A stretch of DNA of 64,000 bases from Anaeromusa acidaminophila DSM 3853 (GTDB taxonomy: Bacteria; Bacillota; Negativicutes; Anaeromusales; Anaeromusaceae): the NCBI RefSeq assembly GCF_000374545.1, contig NZ_KB894592.1, forward strand, positions 1-64,000. The letters run 5' to 3'. The translations under genes were made by a program, and so were the position numbers. Numbering within the stretch: the first letter of the stretch is position 1; the number at the start of each line of letters is the position of its first letter. A model generated the notes under the pieces. The model saw only the letters and a program-made list of their open reading frames with translations, searched no databases and was not told the DNA's origin. This document shows, piece after piece, positions 36,678 to 47,157 of the stretch.

Positions 36678-36763
36678 ATTCCCATAGCTCCCATCCTAAA
36701 AAGATAGCATCTGTTTTGTTTATTCTTGACCAACAAGCAATTCCCTGCTGAAAAAAGAAAGAC

Positions 36764-36793
36764 GAGGGCCCCTTTCTACAGAAAGAGTCCCCC
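36764..36793 (-). terminator. thiC terminator
   Basis: Minus strand: a GGGGGACTCTTTC/GAAAGGGGCCCTC hairpin with a 3-nt loop (one internal imperfection), then CGTCTTTCTTTTTTC. 60 bp after the thiC stop. Confidence 0.82.
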
Positions 36794-36852
36794 GCTTCAT
36801 TGCGGTATTTCTATAAACAAATGCCAGGATAAGGAGAACGAACAGCCTTCTT

Positions 36853-38154
36853 TTAGCAGGAACCGCCCGGTTTTCCCAAATGCTCGCTGACAATCTTCAT
36901 GGCGCAATAATCGCCGCACATCGAGCAGGCTTCCGCGTTGCCGGCGTTTCTCTCCTGCCGGTAGCGGCGCGCCTTTTCCGGATCCAAAGCCAACGAAATC
37001 TGGCCTTCCCAATCCAGCGCCTTACGGGCTTTCGCCATCGATAGATCCCACTCTTTCGCGCCAGGCACGCCCTTCACAATATCTGCAGCATGCGCCGCAA
37101 TGCGCGAGGCCATTACGCCTTCACGTACATCGTCAATAGTCGGCAGAGCTAAATGTTCAGCAGGCGTCACGTAGCATAAGAAGTCGGCGCCAGCGGCCGC
37201 CGCCAGCGTACCGCCAATAGCAGCTGTGATATGATCATAGCCCGGGGCCACATCCGTAACCAACGGTCCTAGAACATAGAAGGGGGCTCCTTTACAAAGA
37301 CGCTTCTGCAACTTCACATTGGCCTCAATCTGGTCATACGGCACATGGCCAGGTCCTTCCACCAGCACTTGCACGCCCTTGCCCCAGGCACGATCAACTA
37401 GCTCGCCCAAAATCAGCAATTCCTGCAATTGTCCGCGGTCGGTGGCATCTGCTAAACAGCCGGGGCGCAAGCCATCGCCTAAGCTGATGGTCGCATCATG
37501 ACGCAAACAGATATCCAGCAAATCATCATACCGCTCATACAAGGGATTTTCCTTATTATTATGCAGCATCCAGCCGGTTAAGAAGGAACCGCCGCGGCTG
37601 ACAATGTCCATCACGCGACCTTCCCGGCGCAGCCTGCCGATGCTTTCCATCGTAATACCGCAGTGAAGCGTCATGAAGTCCGCACCGTCTGCCGCTTGCT
37701 TTTCAATCACATGCAGCATGTCGTCTGCGGTCATCTCCATAATGGAACCTTTGCTTTTAATGGCTTCCACCGTGGCCTGATAGATGGGTACGGTACCGAC
37801 GGCAATGGTCGAGCGTTCAATAATCGCTCGCCGGGATGCGTCAATGTTATCGCCAGTGGACAAATCCATTACCGCATGAGCCCCTGCAGCAATAGCTGCA
37901 TCCAGCTTAGCTAATTCCGGTTCCAAATCAGGAAACGCACTGGATGTACCGATATTGGCGTTTACCTTGGTCGAAAGACCCTCGCCAAACCCAAACGGAC
38001 GCAAAGACGTATGATTGACATTGGCGCATATCGCCACCGTACCAGCGGCTACTTTTTCCCGCAACGTCTCTGGCGCCATGCCCTCCGCTTTAGCCACTCC
38101 AGCCAGAACCTCGGTGATTTTGCCTTGTCTTGCCAACTGCATTTGTGTTGCCAT
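36853..38154 (-). CDS. thiC: Phosphomethylpyrimidine synthase ThiC
   Basis: 433 residues from the ATG at 38154 (AAGGAGG upstream). Radical SAM enzyme of the ThiC class converting AIR to HMP phosphate. The C-terminal cluster motif is CSMCGDYCAMK (C-x2-C-x4-C), with DGLRPGCLADATDRGQLQEL and EGPGHVPYDQIEANV in the barrel. The open frame continues upstream through the riboswitch but is not coding there. Controlled by the TPP riboswitch in its leader. Confidence 0.97.
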   Translation of the reverse strand: MATQMQLARQGKITEVLAGVAKAEGMAPETLREKVAAGTVAICANVNHTSLRPFGFGEGLSTKVNANIGTSSAFPDLEPELAKLDAAIAAGAHAVMDLSTGDNIDASRRAIIERSTIAVGTVPIYQATVEAIKSKGSIMEMTADDMLHVIEKQAADGADFMTLHCGITMESIGRLRREGRVMDIVSRGGSFLTGWMLHNNKENPLYERYDDLLDICLRHDATISLGDGLRPGCLADATDRGQLQELLILGELVDRAWGKGVQVLVEGPGHVPYDQIEANVKLQKRLCKGAPFYVLGPLVTDVAPGYDHITAAIGGTLAAAAGADFLCYVTPAEHLALPTIDDVREGVMASRIAAHAADIVKGVPGAKEWDLSMAKARKALDWEGQISLALDPEKARRYRQERNAGNAEACSMCGDYCAMKIVSEHLGKPGGSC

Positions 38155-38233
38155 GTTTATTTGCCTCCTTCTCGTTCCAGCCTTAAGCCGGACGGCATGC
38201 AGCCGCTGAGAGGAAGCCAGCGATACTAACAAG

Positions 38234-38258
38234 GGACCCTCTCGTAAAGAGAGGGTAT
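38234..38258 (-). promoter_or_regulatory. Expression-platform hairpin of the thiC leader
   Basis: ACCCTCT/AGAGGGT hairpin directly after the TPP aptamer on the minus strand. No convincing T run follows, so control may be by translation or by a longer alternative pairing. Confidence 0.5.
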
Positions 38259-38263
38259 GCAAA

Positions 38264-38365
38264 ATCATAATGATCTTGTCCCACTTCCCTACGCTGGCAT
38301 TACCCAGAATCAGGTTCCAAGGGTCAACCGCCGCAGCAGTTTCTCAGCTTTCGCTCCCCTAGTGG
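38264..38365 (-). ncRNA. TPP riboswitch (Thi-box)
   Basis: Minus strand: AGGGGAGC...GCTGAGA, then GACCCTTGGAACCTGATTCT, then GGTAATGCCAGCGTAGGGAA. These are the conserved P2-P5 elements of the thiamine pyrophosphate aptamer in the right order. It lies 110 bp upstream of thiC. High TPP should lower thiC expression. Confidence 0.95.
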
Positions 38366-38404
38366 CTACTATGCAATTATTTATTAGTTATTGTAGCATA
38401 ACAA

Positions 38405-38427
38405 AGCCGCCGAAGCAATCGGCGGCT
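38405..38427 (-). terminator. Hairpin after the GerMN gene
   Basis: Perfect AGCCGCCGA/TCGGCGGCT stem with a 5-nt loop just beyond the stop at 38440; the minus-strand tail TTTGTTATG is only modestly T-rich. Confidence 0.65.
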
Positions 38428-38439
38428 CAAAAGGACCAT

Positions 38440-39021
38440 TTAGTGTTTAATTATTTTTTCCGAGCGGCTCAGGGGCTCGCTGATGTCTACATGCCCCTGC
38501 AGAGTAGTGCGGCGCTTGCCTTCTACTAAAATTTGCACGCTCTGCACTTCTGGAAATTCAGTTAACGTATTTACAATGGCCGCCACTAACAGACGCTCGC
38601 TCGTAGACCCGGCGTTTTGAGTAATCGCCTCGCTAAAATCCACATAAGCAATTTCGTCTTTAACCCATAAGCCTTTAATTTTTACTTCTTTCGGCAGCAA
38701 CCCCACCATACCGCTTCCATGGGGCGGAGCCGCCAGCAGTTCCATTGCCGTTTGAGCCGGATGATCATTTTTTTTCACCTGGAAAACTTCCGGTAACAAC
38801 CATCTGGCATCGTTAGAACCTCTATATACCTTGATTCGCATAGTCCCTGGCTCTGGTTGCGACATATCCCCTGATGGCACCAGAACTGCAGTCGCTGGCG
38901 TCGCCGCTGTTGCAGGCGCTGTTGCCGACGTTTGCGCCGAAGACGGTTTCATGTCGTTTGCGCAACCGCCTAAAAAGAGCGCCGTCATCAATAAGCACGC
39001 TATCGTAATATACCGCATCAT
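38440..39021 (-). CDS. GerMN-domain lipoprotein
   Basis: 193 residues. Lipoprotein signal MMRYITIACLLMTALFLGGC with the lipobox Cys at about residue 20, a Ser/Thr/Ala/Pro linker, then a GerMN domain (FQVKKNDHPAQTAMELLAAP; YVDFSEAITQNAGSTSERLL). The domain occurs in spore germination protein GerM and in cell-envelope proteins. It overlaps the amidase gene by 4 nt, so the pair probably acts together on peptidoglycan; the exact role is unknown. Confidence 0.88.
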   Translation of the reverse strand: MMRYITIACLLMTALFLGGCANDMKPSSAQTSATAPATAATPATAVLVPSGDMSQPEPGTMRIKVYRGSNDARWLLPEVFQVKKNDHPAQTAMELLAAPPHGSGMVGLLPKEVKIKGLWVKDEIAYVDFSEAITQNAGSTSERLLVAAIVNTLTEFPEVQSVQILVEGKRRTTLQGHVDISEPLSRSEKIIKH

Positions 39022-40097
39022 TGGCTCCCCCCTGACGCTGCAGCCTTGCGGAAAAAGCTATCCAATCCCATAACAATGGCGTTAGCCATTTTTTGTTGAA
39101 ACGTCGGCGAAGCCAATAAACGTTCTTCTTCTGGATTGGAGATGAAAGCTAATTCTACTAAAGTCGCCGGCATAACCGTTCTTTTGATCACATAGAAATT
39201 GGCTGTATTGGATCCACGGTCATTCCGTCCGCCTGCATTAAGCAGCTGCTCCTGCAAGCAATCGGAAAGCAGACCGTCGTATTTCGTCTTTTCATAGTAA
39301 AAGCTGCTGGTCCCGCTAGCCGTGGGGCTGCTGAAGGAGTCGTTATGAATGCTGACAAACGCATCGGCTCTAGCGTTATTGGCCACGGCCGTCCTCGCGC
39401 TCAGTTCCTCAACATTGCTCGCATTGGGACCAAAAACATCCTTGTCAGTTACACGAGTCATCACAACTTTAGCGCCTGACTTTTCCAAAAGCGCTTTTGT
39501 TCGCATAGCTATCGCCAAAGTAACATCTTTTTCTTTCAGACCGCTCGGTCCAAGCGCGCCTGAATCGCTGCCGCCATGGCCCGGATCAAGAGTAATCACT
39601 TTCCCTTTGAGGCCAGCTGAAAATTTCAACTTAGTCAAAGGAGCGGAAGACGATTGTATGTCTAATACTATTCGAAAAGGCCGTCCCGCCTTATCGTCCG
39701 CCGGTAACGTAAACACCTTATAATCTCCGGCTTGCACCACGCCAGGCAAATTCACTGTTAAAGCAAGATCCGATCCGCTGCGCTTAAAAACCGCCGTATT
39801 GGCAATTTTTCCGTCCAACTGATAGGAAGCTTTGACCCCTTTCCCCAGCTTCACTCCTGGCAAGGCCAACGTCAAATTAGGCAATGGCGTCGCCGATACC
39901 GCCGCTTCCGGTACGGTTAGAGGGCCGTTCAAATCCAAAACAAGGCGCAACTTCGCAGCTCCTGTCGCCGCATCTATATGCACATGAGATTTCACATTCT
40001 GCACCTGCGTCGCTTGCGTGGCCGCTTCAGTCACCGAAATAGGGCTAAAGCATAGCAGCAGCAAAAATAAGCATAAAAAACAAACTATGCGTCGCAA
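39018..40097 (-). CDS. N-acetylmuramoyl-L-alanine amidase (AMIN + Amidase_3)
   Basis: About 360 residues from a TTG at 40097, chosen because AAAGGAGGG lies 7 nt upstream and a signal peptide follows at once (RRIVCFLCLFLLLLCF). An N-terminal AMIN domain (residues ~35-150) for envelope targeting is followed by a zinc amidase domain: VITLDPGHGGSDSGALG, the Glu in LSARTAVANNARADAF, SIHNDSF, and a C-terminal VELAFISNPEEERLL. It cleaves the bond between muramic acid and the stem peptide. Coupled to the GerMN gene. Confidence 0.93.
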   Translation of the reverse strand: MRRIVCFLCLFLLLLCFSPISVTEAATQATQVQNVKSHVHIDAATGAAKLRLVLDLNGPLTVPEAAVSATPLPNLTLALPGVKLGKGVKASYQLDGKIANTAVFKRSGSDLALTVNLPGVVQAGDYKVFTLPADDKAGRPFRIVLDIQSSSAPLTKLKFSAGLKGKVITLDPGHGGSDSGALGPSGLKEKDVTLAIAMRTKALLEKSGAKVVMTRVTDKDVFGPNASNVEELSARTAVANNARADAFVSIHNDSFSSPTASGTSSFYYEKTKYDGLLSDCLQEQLLNAGGRNDRGSNTANFYVIKRTVMPATLVELAFISNPEEERLLASPTFQQKMANAIVMGLDSFFRKAAASGGSQ

Positions 40098-40143
40098 AAA
40101 ATACCCTCCTTTAAACCTTAAGAAGCTATGCTTCCTAAAAACG

Positions 40144-40173
40144 AAAGGCGGCACGCCGCAGCATGCCGCCTTT
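40144..40173 (-). terminator. mazF terminator
   Basis: Perfect AAAGGCGGCA/TGCCGCCTTT stem, then CGTTTTT on the minus strand, 8 bp after the mazF stop. Confidence 0.85.
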
Positions 40174-40180
40174 ATGTACG

Positions 40181-40531
40181 TCAGACGGGTATCAGCCCCA
40201 GACTGATCTTGAGTGCTTCATCTACCTTGCGCATCATATCGGCATCCAGGTGCGTTACTTTTTCCTGCAGCCTTCGCTTATCAATGGTCCGAATTTGTTC
40301 CAACAAAATAACAGAGTCTTTTTCGAGTTGAAAGCGTTGTGCCGCCACTTCTACATGAGTAGGCAGCTTAGCTTTAGAAATTTGTGAAGTAATCGCCGCA
40401 ATGATCACAGTAGGGCTGTAGCGATTGCCGACATCATTTTGCACAACCAACACTGGTCGGTGTCCACCTTGCTCGGAGCCGACAACAGGGCTCAGGTTTG
40501 CATAGAAAACATCCCCTCGCCGTATCGCCAT
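40181..40531 (-). CDS. mazF: MazF/PemK-family endoribonuclease toxin
   Basis: 116 residues with [20 protein letters not shown] and [20 protein letters not shown], the Firmicute EndoA/MazF sequence including the active-site Arg and Thr region ([20 protein letters not shown]). It cuts single-stranded mRNA and is neutralised by the product of the gene immediately upstream, which it overlaps by 1 nt. Confidence 0.95.
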
Positions 40532-44705: not shown

Positions 44706-46082
44706 TTAGCTGCGTCCCAACTTAGCCGCCAATTTATTGGCAGCAACCGCTAAAACATCAATCGGACTGTTGAACGGCGGTGAATAGGCGAGATCGGCGT
44801 CAAACAGCTTTTCTACAGTCGCTCCCAAGCTAAGAGCCATGGCCGCCACATCTACCCGCTTCACAACATCCCCTTCGCCCCAAGCCTGCATCCCCAGTAG
44901 TTTCCGAGTCGTCGTATCCGCTGTAAGCTTCAAAGTCAATTTTCGCGACGTTTTCATATAATGTGGCCGGTCATAACCGGAAACGGTTACACTAGCGCAA
45001 TCGAAGCCAGCAGCCGCTGCTTGGCGCTCATTCAGCCCCGTTCTCCCTACCTGCAGATCAAAGAGCTTCACTACCGCCGTCCCCAGAACCCCGCCAAATT
45101 TCACGCCGGCGCCGCAAATATTTTCACCAATAACCCGCCCCTGCTTATTAGCCGTCGACCCCATGGGCAAAAACACTTTCTCTCCGCTAACCTTATGCGT
45201 ATTTTCCGCACAATCGCCTCCTGCAAAAACAGCTTCATCCGAGGTCTGCAAATACTCATTTACGGCGATAGCGCCGCTTACGCCCAAGGTCAGTCCCGCT
45301 TGACTCGCCAGCTCTACATTGGGCCTTGCGCCTAATGCTAAAATCACCAAATCCGCAGCAATACTCCGTTTGTCTGTTTTCACTTCACGCACCTGCGCCT
45401 CGCCGCCAAAGGCTTCCACCTTTTCCTCCTTTAAAAACCGCAGACCTTTAGTTTCCAAACGCAGTTCCAACTCTTGCGCCATATCTGCGTCCAAAAGAGC
45501 CGGAAAAAGCTGATTTTTCATTTCCACTACTGTTACATCGACATCCCACATTCGTAATGCTTCCGCTATCTCCAAACCGATCAACCCTGCACCAATTACT
45601 ACCGCTTTTTCATATTTTTGCTCTTCCAGGCCCCGCCTAATAGCAGTAGCGTCTTGGGGTCTCCATACATGAAAAATATTCTCTTTTTCTACCCCCGGCC
45701 AGGCTGGTTTTATCGGGGAAGAGCCTGTAGCCAAAACTAATTTATCGTAAGCGAATTGGCGCTTTACGCCAGTTTTCAAATCCAAAGCATGCACGATCTT
45801 TGCCTCACGTTCGATCGCCACAGCTTCCATCCGCGTCAAAACATCCAGGTTTTTCGCTTTTTTAAAAAATTCCGGCGTCCGCAGCGCCCCTGCTGGCGAG
45901 CTCATCAGTTGGCGAATCTGTTCTACCTCGCCGCCGATAAAATACGGCAAGCCGCACGCGCCATAGGAAACAAGCTCGCCTCTCTCTAATACGGTAATTT
46001 GAGCCTCAGCATCCAAGCGGCGCACTTTTGCGGCGGCTTTCAGCCCAGCGGCCACACCGCCTATCACTACAATTCGCTGCAT
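44706..46082 (-). CDS. CoA-disulfide reductase/NADH oxidase-like flavoprotein
   Basis: 458 residues from the ATG at 46082 (GAGAGGGG upstream). FAD site VVIGGVAAGLKAAAKVRR, redox Cys in SYGACGLPYFIGG, NAD site AVVIGAGLIGLEIAEAL, FAD ribityl motif VFAGGDCAE, and a dimerisation domain ending DLAYSPPFNSPIDVLAVAAN. The single active Cys places it among CoA-disulfide reductases, NADH oxidases and polysulfide reductases; the precise substrate cannot be told from sequence. Likely used in redox defence of an anaerobe. Confidence 0.9.
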   Translation of the reverse strand: MQRIVVIGGVAAGLKAAAKVRRLDAEAQITVLERGELVSYGACGLPYFIGGEVEQIRQLMSSPAGALRTPEFFKKAKNLDVLTRMEAVAIEREAKIVHALDLKTGVKRQFAYDKLVLATGSSPIKPAWPGVEKENIFHVWRPQDATAIRRGLEEQKYEKAVVIGAGLIGLEIAEALRMWDVDVTVVEMKNQLFPALLDADMAQELELRLETKGLRFLKEEKVEAFGGEAQVREVKTDKRSIAADLVILALGARPNVELASQAGLTLGVSGAIAVNEYLQTSDEAVFAGGDCAENTHKVSGEKVFLPMGSTANKQGRVIGENICGAGVKFGGVLGTAVVKLFDLQVGRTGLNERQAAAAGFDCASVTVSGYDRPHYMKTSRKLTLKLTADTTTRKLLGMQAWGEGDVVKRVDVAAMALSLGATVEKLFDADLAYSPPFNSPIDVLAVAANKLAAKLGRS

Positions 46083-46109
46083 GTTTTTCGCCCCTCTCCT
46101 CGTCTTCAC

Positions 46110-46615
46110 GACAACTAGTTATTGCTTTAGTTCTCCTTTTCCCAGCACTTTCCTGCCAATATATAACGAGTGAGCAGGAGCACCAGAGTCACGAGAGGGT
46201 TCGACTGAGGGTTGCGAAGTTTAACAGGAGTACGACGCCGCCGGATGCGGTTAGGGTCGGTTGCGCCATGGAAGGCATAGCAACCGACGTCTGCTGGCAT
46301 TTAATAGTGAAGGAACGGCCATGACTAAGGCGGCCGTGACTGTATTTGAGACTTTTGGGGAGCAAAACGGTCCGCAGGACGCAAAACCAGGAGGCGACGG
46401 GGAAAAGTTCCGTATGTCTGAGCGCCAGCGAGTTCGCGGAACTGCCGCCGACTCCTGGTTTTGCGAGTCGCGCGGAAATCTTGTCTCAAATGCAGTTGTG
46501 CTGCCGTTTATACTCTTAAAAACCCTTTTCGCGTTTTTCGCGATTTTCGCGGTTCTTCAGCCATACCCCCGCCATTTTTTCTGTCTCAGTCTTTCAAAAC
46601 TACAAACTATGGCAT
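46110..46615. other. Gene-free stretch with nested stems: candidate structured RNA or dispersed repeat
   Basis: No gene fits this 500-bp gap. Stems seen: GTCGGTTGC/GCAACCGAC (46256-46288); ACGGCC/GGCCGT (46315-46337); CTGTATTTGAGAC with GTCTCAAATGCAG (46340-46352/46483-46495); nested inside it a perfect 14-bp CGCAAAACCAGGAG/CTCCTGGTTTTGCG (46380-46393/46452-46465); and inside that AGTTCCG/CGGAACT (46406-46412/46437-46443). CGCG-T(3-5) repeats follow at 46529-46551. One mismatch in the outer stem would be a G-U pair in plus-strand RNA. No known family recognised. Confidence 0.5.
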
Positions 46616-46622
46616 AGTAAAA

Positions 46623-46648
46623 AAGCCGCCTCCTGCCGGAGACGGCTT
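46623..46648 (-). terminator. Ferritin gene terminator
   Basis: Imperfect AAGCCGTCTCC/GGAGGCGGCTT hairpin followed by TTTTTTA on the minus strand, 12 bp after the stop at 46660. Confidence 0.85.
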
Positions 46649-46659
46649 CGTTTTTCAGT

Positions 46660-47157
46660 TTATCCGCGAGCGCGCTTACCCATTTCTTTATCCACATAGA
46701 AGATGGCGCCGACACTCTTGTCGCCAATCAGGCGAAGCTTGTCTACTACCGCCGTAGCGCTGGCTTCTTCTTCGACTTGCTCCGTGATGTACCATTGCAG
46801 GAAGATCTGCGCCGCTACGTCTTTTTCTTTAACTGCCAGCTCATATAAGCCGTTAATGCATTTAGTTACATACTGCTCATGTTTGAGCACTTCTTCAAAC
46901 ATCTGCAACGGAGTTCCAAAAGCAGCTGCCGGCGCATCAACTTGGGAAAGCTCCGGCGTACCGCCTCTCTCTAAAAGATAGCTCATAAATTTAAAAGCAT
47001 GTTCCATTTCTTCTTGATATTGAATACGCAGCCAGGATGCAAAACCGCCTAAGCTTTGCGTTTCGCTATATAACGACATCGCCAGATAAATATTAGCGGA
47101 ATTCATTTCCACCTGAATCTGCTTATTAATCGCATTTTGTAATTTTGCCGAAATCAT
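46660..47157 (-). CDS. ftnA: Bacterial non-haem ferritin
   Basis: 165 residues. Four-helix bundle with ferroxidase ligands in QVEMNSANIYLAMSLYSETQ and YQEEMEHAFKFMSYLLERGG, plus a later Glu/Gln pair in QWYITEQVEEEASATAVVDK. It oxidises and stores iron and protects against Fenton chemistry. Single-gene unit with its own terminator. Its promoter region (47200-47250) is AT-rich and has a partial Fur-like dyad, GATAATTATTG on the minus strand, too weak to call. Confidence 0.95.
   Translation of the reverse strand: MISAKLQNAINKQIQVEMNSANIYLAMSLYSETQSLGGFASWLRIQYQEEMEHAFKFMSYLLERGGTPELSQVDAPAAAFGTPLQMFEEVLKHEQYVTKCINGLYELAVKEKDVAAQIFLQWYITEQVEEEASATAVVDKLRLIGDKSVGAIFYVDKEMGKRARG

Follow-up and report, generated by a model that had tools for sequence, protein, structure and literature searches.

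The DNA analyzed here is a 64,000-nucleotide stretch of Anaeromusa acidaminophila DSM 3853 (the window), in which a structured, gene-free gap separates two minus-strand genes, named from their translations as a CoA-disulfide-reductase-like gene (44706-46109) and a ferritin-like gene (46660-47157). Of the 13 gaps in the window that span at least 180 bp, this gap ranks first in GC content (0.515) and, on either strand, lowest in folding energy per base, which bears out the earlier remark that it exceeds all others in GC content and structure. Its plus strand folds at -160.9 kcal/mol compared to a shuffled mean of -136.4 kcal/mol (z -5.15, 0 of 100 shuffles), and its minus strand also departs from shuffled sequence (z -4.59). 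The first-pass annotation had described nested stems at 46256-46551, and we recovered all of them where it had placed them, far beyond chance expectation. Rfam matches the window once, at a TPP riboswitch (38269-38370, minus strand).

The element reaches slightly past that annotated span and is a composite of a separate upstream module and a core, both given on the plus strand. The upstream module (46158-46292) comprises a purine-rich stretch (46168-46232) and a hairpin (46256-46288), whose arms at 46256-46264 and 46280-46288 (GTCGGTTGC/GCAACCGAC) enclose the loop GCCATGGAAGGC and confirm the pairing previously noted upstream. The core (about 46324-46507, about 184 nt) is a long rod-shaped hairpin with a conserved tip. 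Its outer stem, P1, pairs 46339-46352 with 46483-46496, and the one mismatch within it is a U:G pair on the plus strand, as had been claimed. The motif GGTCCGCAGGAC (46369-46380) is conserved in the genus family, and its AGGAC lies within the pattern used for our cross-phylum search. The middle stem, P2 (46380-46400 with 46445-46465), includes the perfect 14 bp reported earlier and is set off by an asymmetric purine-rich internal loop from the inner stem, P3 (46406-46412 with 46437-46443), which is the 7-bp stem of the same report. The conserved tip, TGTCTGAGCGCCAGCGAGTT, lies at 46415-46434 and is the hallmark of the element across phyla. Beyond the core, the CGCG-T repeats already listed by the first-pass annotation, TTTTCGCG, occupy 46526-46554 as a third dispersed piece. 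The convergent ferritin-like gene has its own terminator-like hairpin (46619-46653, minus strand), which abuts the 3' side of the element as context and is not part of it.

A similarity search with the structured region found 43 diverged matches in its own genome, and three congeners had about 20 apiece, while DNA similarity revealed almost no matches in other families of the class. Exact-tip copies number 11 to 43 per genome in the genus, with 37 in the congener G001. The core is missing from the orthologous gap in all three congeners: the whole insert is missing in G002, while G001 and G003 keep the upstream module and a shorter version of the TTTTCGCG repeats. The upstream module also has core-free matches elsewhere in its own genome. 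The region is therefore a mosaic built from three or more dispersed pieces, the core being the structured one among them. A comparison of G001 with A. acidaminophila loci (L329/L027) yielded a nearly clean empty site for the core, where the junction repeats no more than 3 bp (GGC). At L350/L054, a partial deletion has left the 3' arm behind, and L327/L043 looks like a case of site reuse. The 43 aligned genus copies form at least three subfamilies.

Two other dispersed features accompany the element in the genus. The hairpin at 46256-46288 belongs to a second dispersed hairpin family with the loop GCCATGGANGGC (also at L077, L329, and L027), whose stems differ between copies (GGTTGC/GCAACC and GGATGC/GCATCC) and which also occurs without the core. 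A tail motif, CTTATAAATTCTGGTATA, resembling an extended -10 sequence, is dispersed at own-genome loci L041-L070 and often lies just ahead of a terminator, with or without the core. This promoter-like motif is dispersed on its own and was set aside as uninformative about the element.

The consensus rod of the genus runs in order from the outer stem through GGTCCGCAGGAC, the middle stem, the asymmetric purine-rich internal loop, and the inner stem to the tip, which has the consensus TGTYTGAGCG(N1-2)AGCGAGTT. Across the 43 copies, 95.8% of cells in the consensus structure are paired and 17 of the 45 pairs show double changes. None of 500 shuffles reached any of the five measures, and the signal was lost when the pairing partner was slid, although the tested structure came from the same alignment and was thus somewhat favored. 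Orthologous copies in the genomes G013 and G307 keep the tip and alter the stems in a compensated way. Over seven such pairs, including L220/L286 with a match on a single flank, 61 base pairs are double-compensated, 25 are single-retained, 32 are broken, and 404 are unchanged. Gene conversion or template-directed repair between the palindrome arms could mimic part of this compensation. Within the tip, RNAalifold predicts the mini-hairpin GC-GN(N)A-GC, with a closing C-G or U:G pair lying outside it. Mini-hairpins of the form d(GCGNAGC) are unusually stable in DNA, which fits a single-stranded DNA (ssDNA) form of the tip and is no proof of it. The d(GCGAAGC) form is used in published work.

A search with the AGGAC and tip pattern recovered at least 120 stretches, and the matches listed include Negativicutes, Clostridia, Bacteroidota, beta-, gamma-, and deltaproteobacteria, Acidobacteriota, Nitrospirota, and one CPR genome. 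The tip is present in 15 of 299 sampled Bacillota genomes, whereas a reversed control pattern had zero matches in the same genomes. Arm complementarity exceeds the 99th percentile of random sites at 42 of 51 tip sites, with stems that are unrelated to one another; the median score is 88.5 at tip sites versus 20 at random sites, one of which outscored every tip site. A constant tip caps rods of about 150-270 nt in other taxa, and the stems vary. A further hairpin, GGTTACTTTTC...GAAAAGTAAC, lies 3' of the rod or tip at L035, L086, L161, and other loci in several phyla. Near-identical copies occur at contig ends in G242 (L214-L216) and in a set of three on one G281 contig (C28, L206), which suggests recent spread. 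The unique flanks outside the L206 element look complementary to each other, suggesting that it may have inserted into the apex of an already existing palindrome. Clustered copies, such as those in G065 and G281, flank ordinary chromosomal genes, and we therefore rejected the idea of gene cassettes flanked by elements. Viral cargo was likewise rejected: only 14 of 2.9 million viral contigs match, a blastn search of the window element against phage gave no match, and neither did one of its G013 relative against plasmids.

Mismatches in the arms indicate which strand folds. On the tip strand, G:U (or G:T) mismatches outnumber A:C mismatches by 92:44, 158:88, and 68:40 in three groups (P = 5e-5, 1e-5, and 0.009), and by 83 to 48 in a set with one copy per genus (P = 0.003), counted on arms aligned with Watson-Crick scoring only. 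These P values are optimistic because the copies have common ancestry. The excess of about 2:1 suggests that the tip strand is probably the one that acts single-stranded and folds, as RNA or as ssDNA, in which G:T is also better tolerated than A:C. Conserved pairing together with a G:U excess on one strand makes it very likely that a single-stranded form, whether RNA or ssDNA, matters to the element.

Every orientable copy in the genus lies on the lagging-strand side. The element strand in G002 flips at the two changes of GC skew, the origin near 0.645 Mb and the terminus near 2.3 Mb, and all listed copies there are in the lagging-strand sense relative to the skew. Local skew gives the lagging orientation for 13 of 13 own copies and 7 of 7 congener copies. 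The 37 copies of G001 form uniform strand blocks, which would correspond to two replichores if contig C1 has the opposite orientation to C2. Most genes of G002 are coded on the leading strand, and much of the lagging bias would therefore arise from antisense placement by itself; three own copies between lagging-strand genes (L011, L015, and L017) still obey the replication rule. The genus copies also share a gene context, in that 20 of 23 have a convergent gene on their 3' side and 24 of 56 have a terminator-like hairpin there, whereas such a hairpin lies upstream in 3 of 56 and occurs in 6% of random windows. Among Bacillota copies outside the genus, the 3' neighbor is an antisense gene in 36 of 51, and the median distance from its stop codon to the tip is 116 nt. 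The named cross-phylum set shows neither a lagging-strand bias (73:71) nor a 3' antisense-gene bias, and no protein family recurs beside the copies.

Of the two readings offered by the first-pass annotation, the dispersed palindromic repeat is supported, given the 43 own-genome matches, the presence and absence between congeners, and the relatives in other phyla, and the large structured RNA is not established. In a functional structured RNA family, each copy would yield a tip-strand transcript on which selection acts, with a partner bound by the tip and asymmetric internal loop, and spread would occur by duplication or transposition. The covariation in the genus, the compensated stems at orthologous loci of G013 and G307, the G:U excess on the tip strand, and the conservation of the tip and internal loops all agree with such a family. 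We still regard it as rather unlikely: a check against known RNA families, which the annotation had proposed, found none at or above the gathering score for the element in Rfam 15, copies at different loci have no common, promoter-like upstream context (by eye), and the patchy distribution coincides with many copies where the element is present. The replication-strand bias in the genus also argues against selection as RNA, and the mismatch asymmetry is expected from ssDNA folding too. The annotation had further held that many identical copies with insertion-like flanks would mark a mobile repeat and not an RNA gene; the number of copies and their flanks largely agree with this, but the copies are diverged and not identical. 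Alternatively, the position just after genes raises the idea of a 3'-end structure on the neighboring mRNA, kept as a terminator, roadblock, or stability hairpin. The convergent genes in the genus and the antisense genes close to the tip in other Bacillota are what this predicts, yet the genus gene often has its own terminator-like hairpin between itself and the element, the G:U asymmetry favors the strand that is not mRNA-sense, and the positional bias is missing from the named cross-phylum set. We accordingly judge this explanation improbable.

The remaining alternatives concern how such an element might move. An insertion sequence-derived MITE would carry two terminal inverted repeats recognized by a DDE transposase, with the rod as a by-product; long inverted repeats, multiple copies, and presence or absence between congeners are as expected of one. 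Conservation of the tip combined with outer stems that vary from one subfamily and taxon to another is the reverse of what end recognition predicts, and with no transposase family recurring near copies and a single nearly clean empty site repeating at most the 3 bp GGC, this origin seems very improbable. Even less credible is a REP-type sequence moved by a RAYT (TnpAREP). One genome, G065, does encode a RAYT (NF047646, 81.7 bits) about 0.5 kb from one copy, but that gene (L205, 4096-4578, minus strand) is surrounded by its own GTAGGGGC...GCCC REP hairpins, which are distinct from the element. RAYTs occur in 2 of 15 tip-bearing genomes versus 18 of 284 others, and G001 has no Y1_Tnp match despite its 37 exact-tip copies. 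RAYT presence does not track the tip, and a RAYT/REP origin is largely refuted. A retron msr-msd was also rejected, as the core neither contains nor adjoins a reverse transcriptase. The own genome has only two RVT_1 genes, both away from core copies: a group II-type gene beside enolase and a DGR-type gene, the latter (L040; G000:C20, about 36704-40294) adjoining open reading frames that resemble formylglycine-generating-enzyme repeats.

Comparison with known systems places the element among dispersed palindromes. REP sequences measure 21-65 nt, carry the tetranucleotide GT[AG]G at their 5' foot, and have a cognate tnpAREP in the genome (PMC6006769). Like REP, BIME, and REPIN sequences associated with TnpAREP, the element is intergenic, multicopy, palindromic, probably nonautonomous, and patchy across phyla. 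It differs from REPs as so defined in its size, with a core of about 184 nt here and rods of about 150-270 nt elsewhere, in that 57 genus cores lack a constant GT[AG]G foot (by eye), in the absence of RAYT co-occurrence, and in its constant tip with free stems. IS200/IS605 elements such as IS608 and ISDra2 combine hairpin recognition with targeting of the lagging-strand template (PMC6006769). The strand bias of the element resembles this targeting in this genus only, and neither a tnpA in the element nor a Y1_Tnp match in G001 was found that would make it a member. Three further systems bear comparison. ERIC is an intergenic palindrome of 100 bp or more, present in many copies and with most of its sequence conserved in enterobacteria and relatives; the element is likewise a long intergenic multicopy palindrome, but it conserves only the tip, across phyla. 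Integron attC sites are more conserved in structure than in sequence and recombine as a folded single strand. The element likewise conserves structure over sequence, but its copies form no cassette arrays. Group IIC introns prefer terminator regions, and the element likewise lies near terminators, but its core has no reverse transcriptase or Rfam intron match.

From the observed dispersal, gain and loss, structural constraint, and strand and site preferences, we favor, with somewhat better than even confidence, a nonautonomous dispersed hairpin element that inserts as lagging-strand ssDNA with the help of a putative enzyme acting in trans. The tip strand would fold while single-stranded on the lagging-strand template, and the putative enzyme would insert the element beside terminators after recognizing its tip and asymmetric internal loop. 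The element would often be deleted later, as palindromes are, and its stem sequence would drift freely provided that pairing holds. Several observations weigh against this mobile hairpin. No protein family recurs beside copies, the target-site repeat is at most 3 bp in one case, and the lagging bias partly follows gene orientation in the genus and is missing across phyla. In addition, internal loops are conserved and stem changes compensated at old loci, which could reflect a function that is maintained and not selfish mobility. Overall, the element looks like a tiny mobile element more than an RNA gene. It is a dispersed palindrome, a known kind, in an unfamiliar form that combines a universal tip, free stems, and a cross-phylum range. 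More tentatively, and at less than even confidence, the relatives may constitute one superfamily of mobile ssDNA hairpins across bacterial phyla, with recognition of the tip only, stems constrained only to pair, and a putative recombinase acting on folded lagging-strand DNA; the tip in this superfamily would be a GNA/GNNA mini-hairpin above the inner stem and asymmetric purine-rich internal loop. A literature search of partial coverage found neither the tip printed as a repeat nor the concept described, and a prior description is possible.

The nearly free stems and the same tip in unrelated phyla suggest that a widespread protein recognizes a folded single-stranded nucleic acid. Such elements would also account for spurious short open reading frames whose translation across the tip is LSERSEF or LFERSEF, and for contig ends located inside the elements. 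Finding the protein that recognizes the tip would reveal a form of DNA mobility based on structure and not on end sequence.
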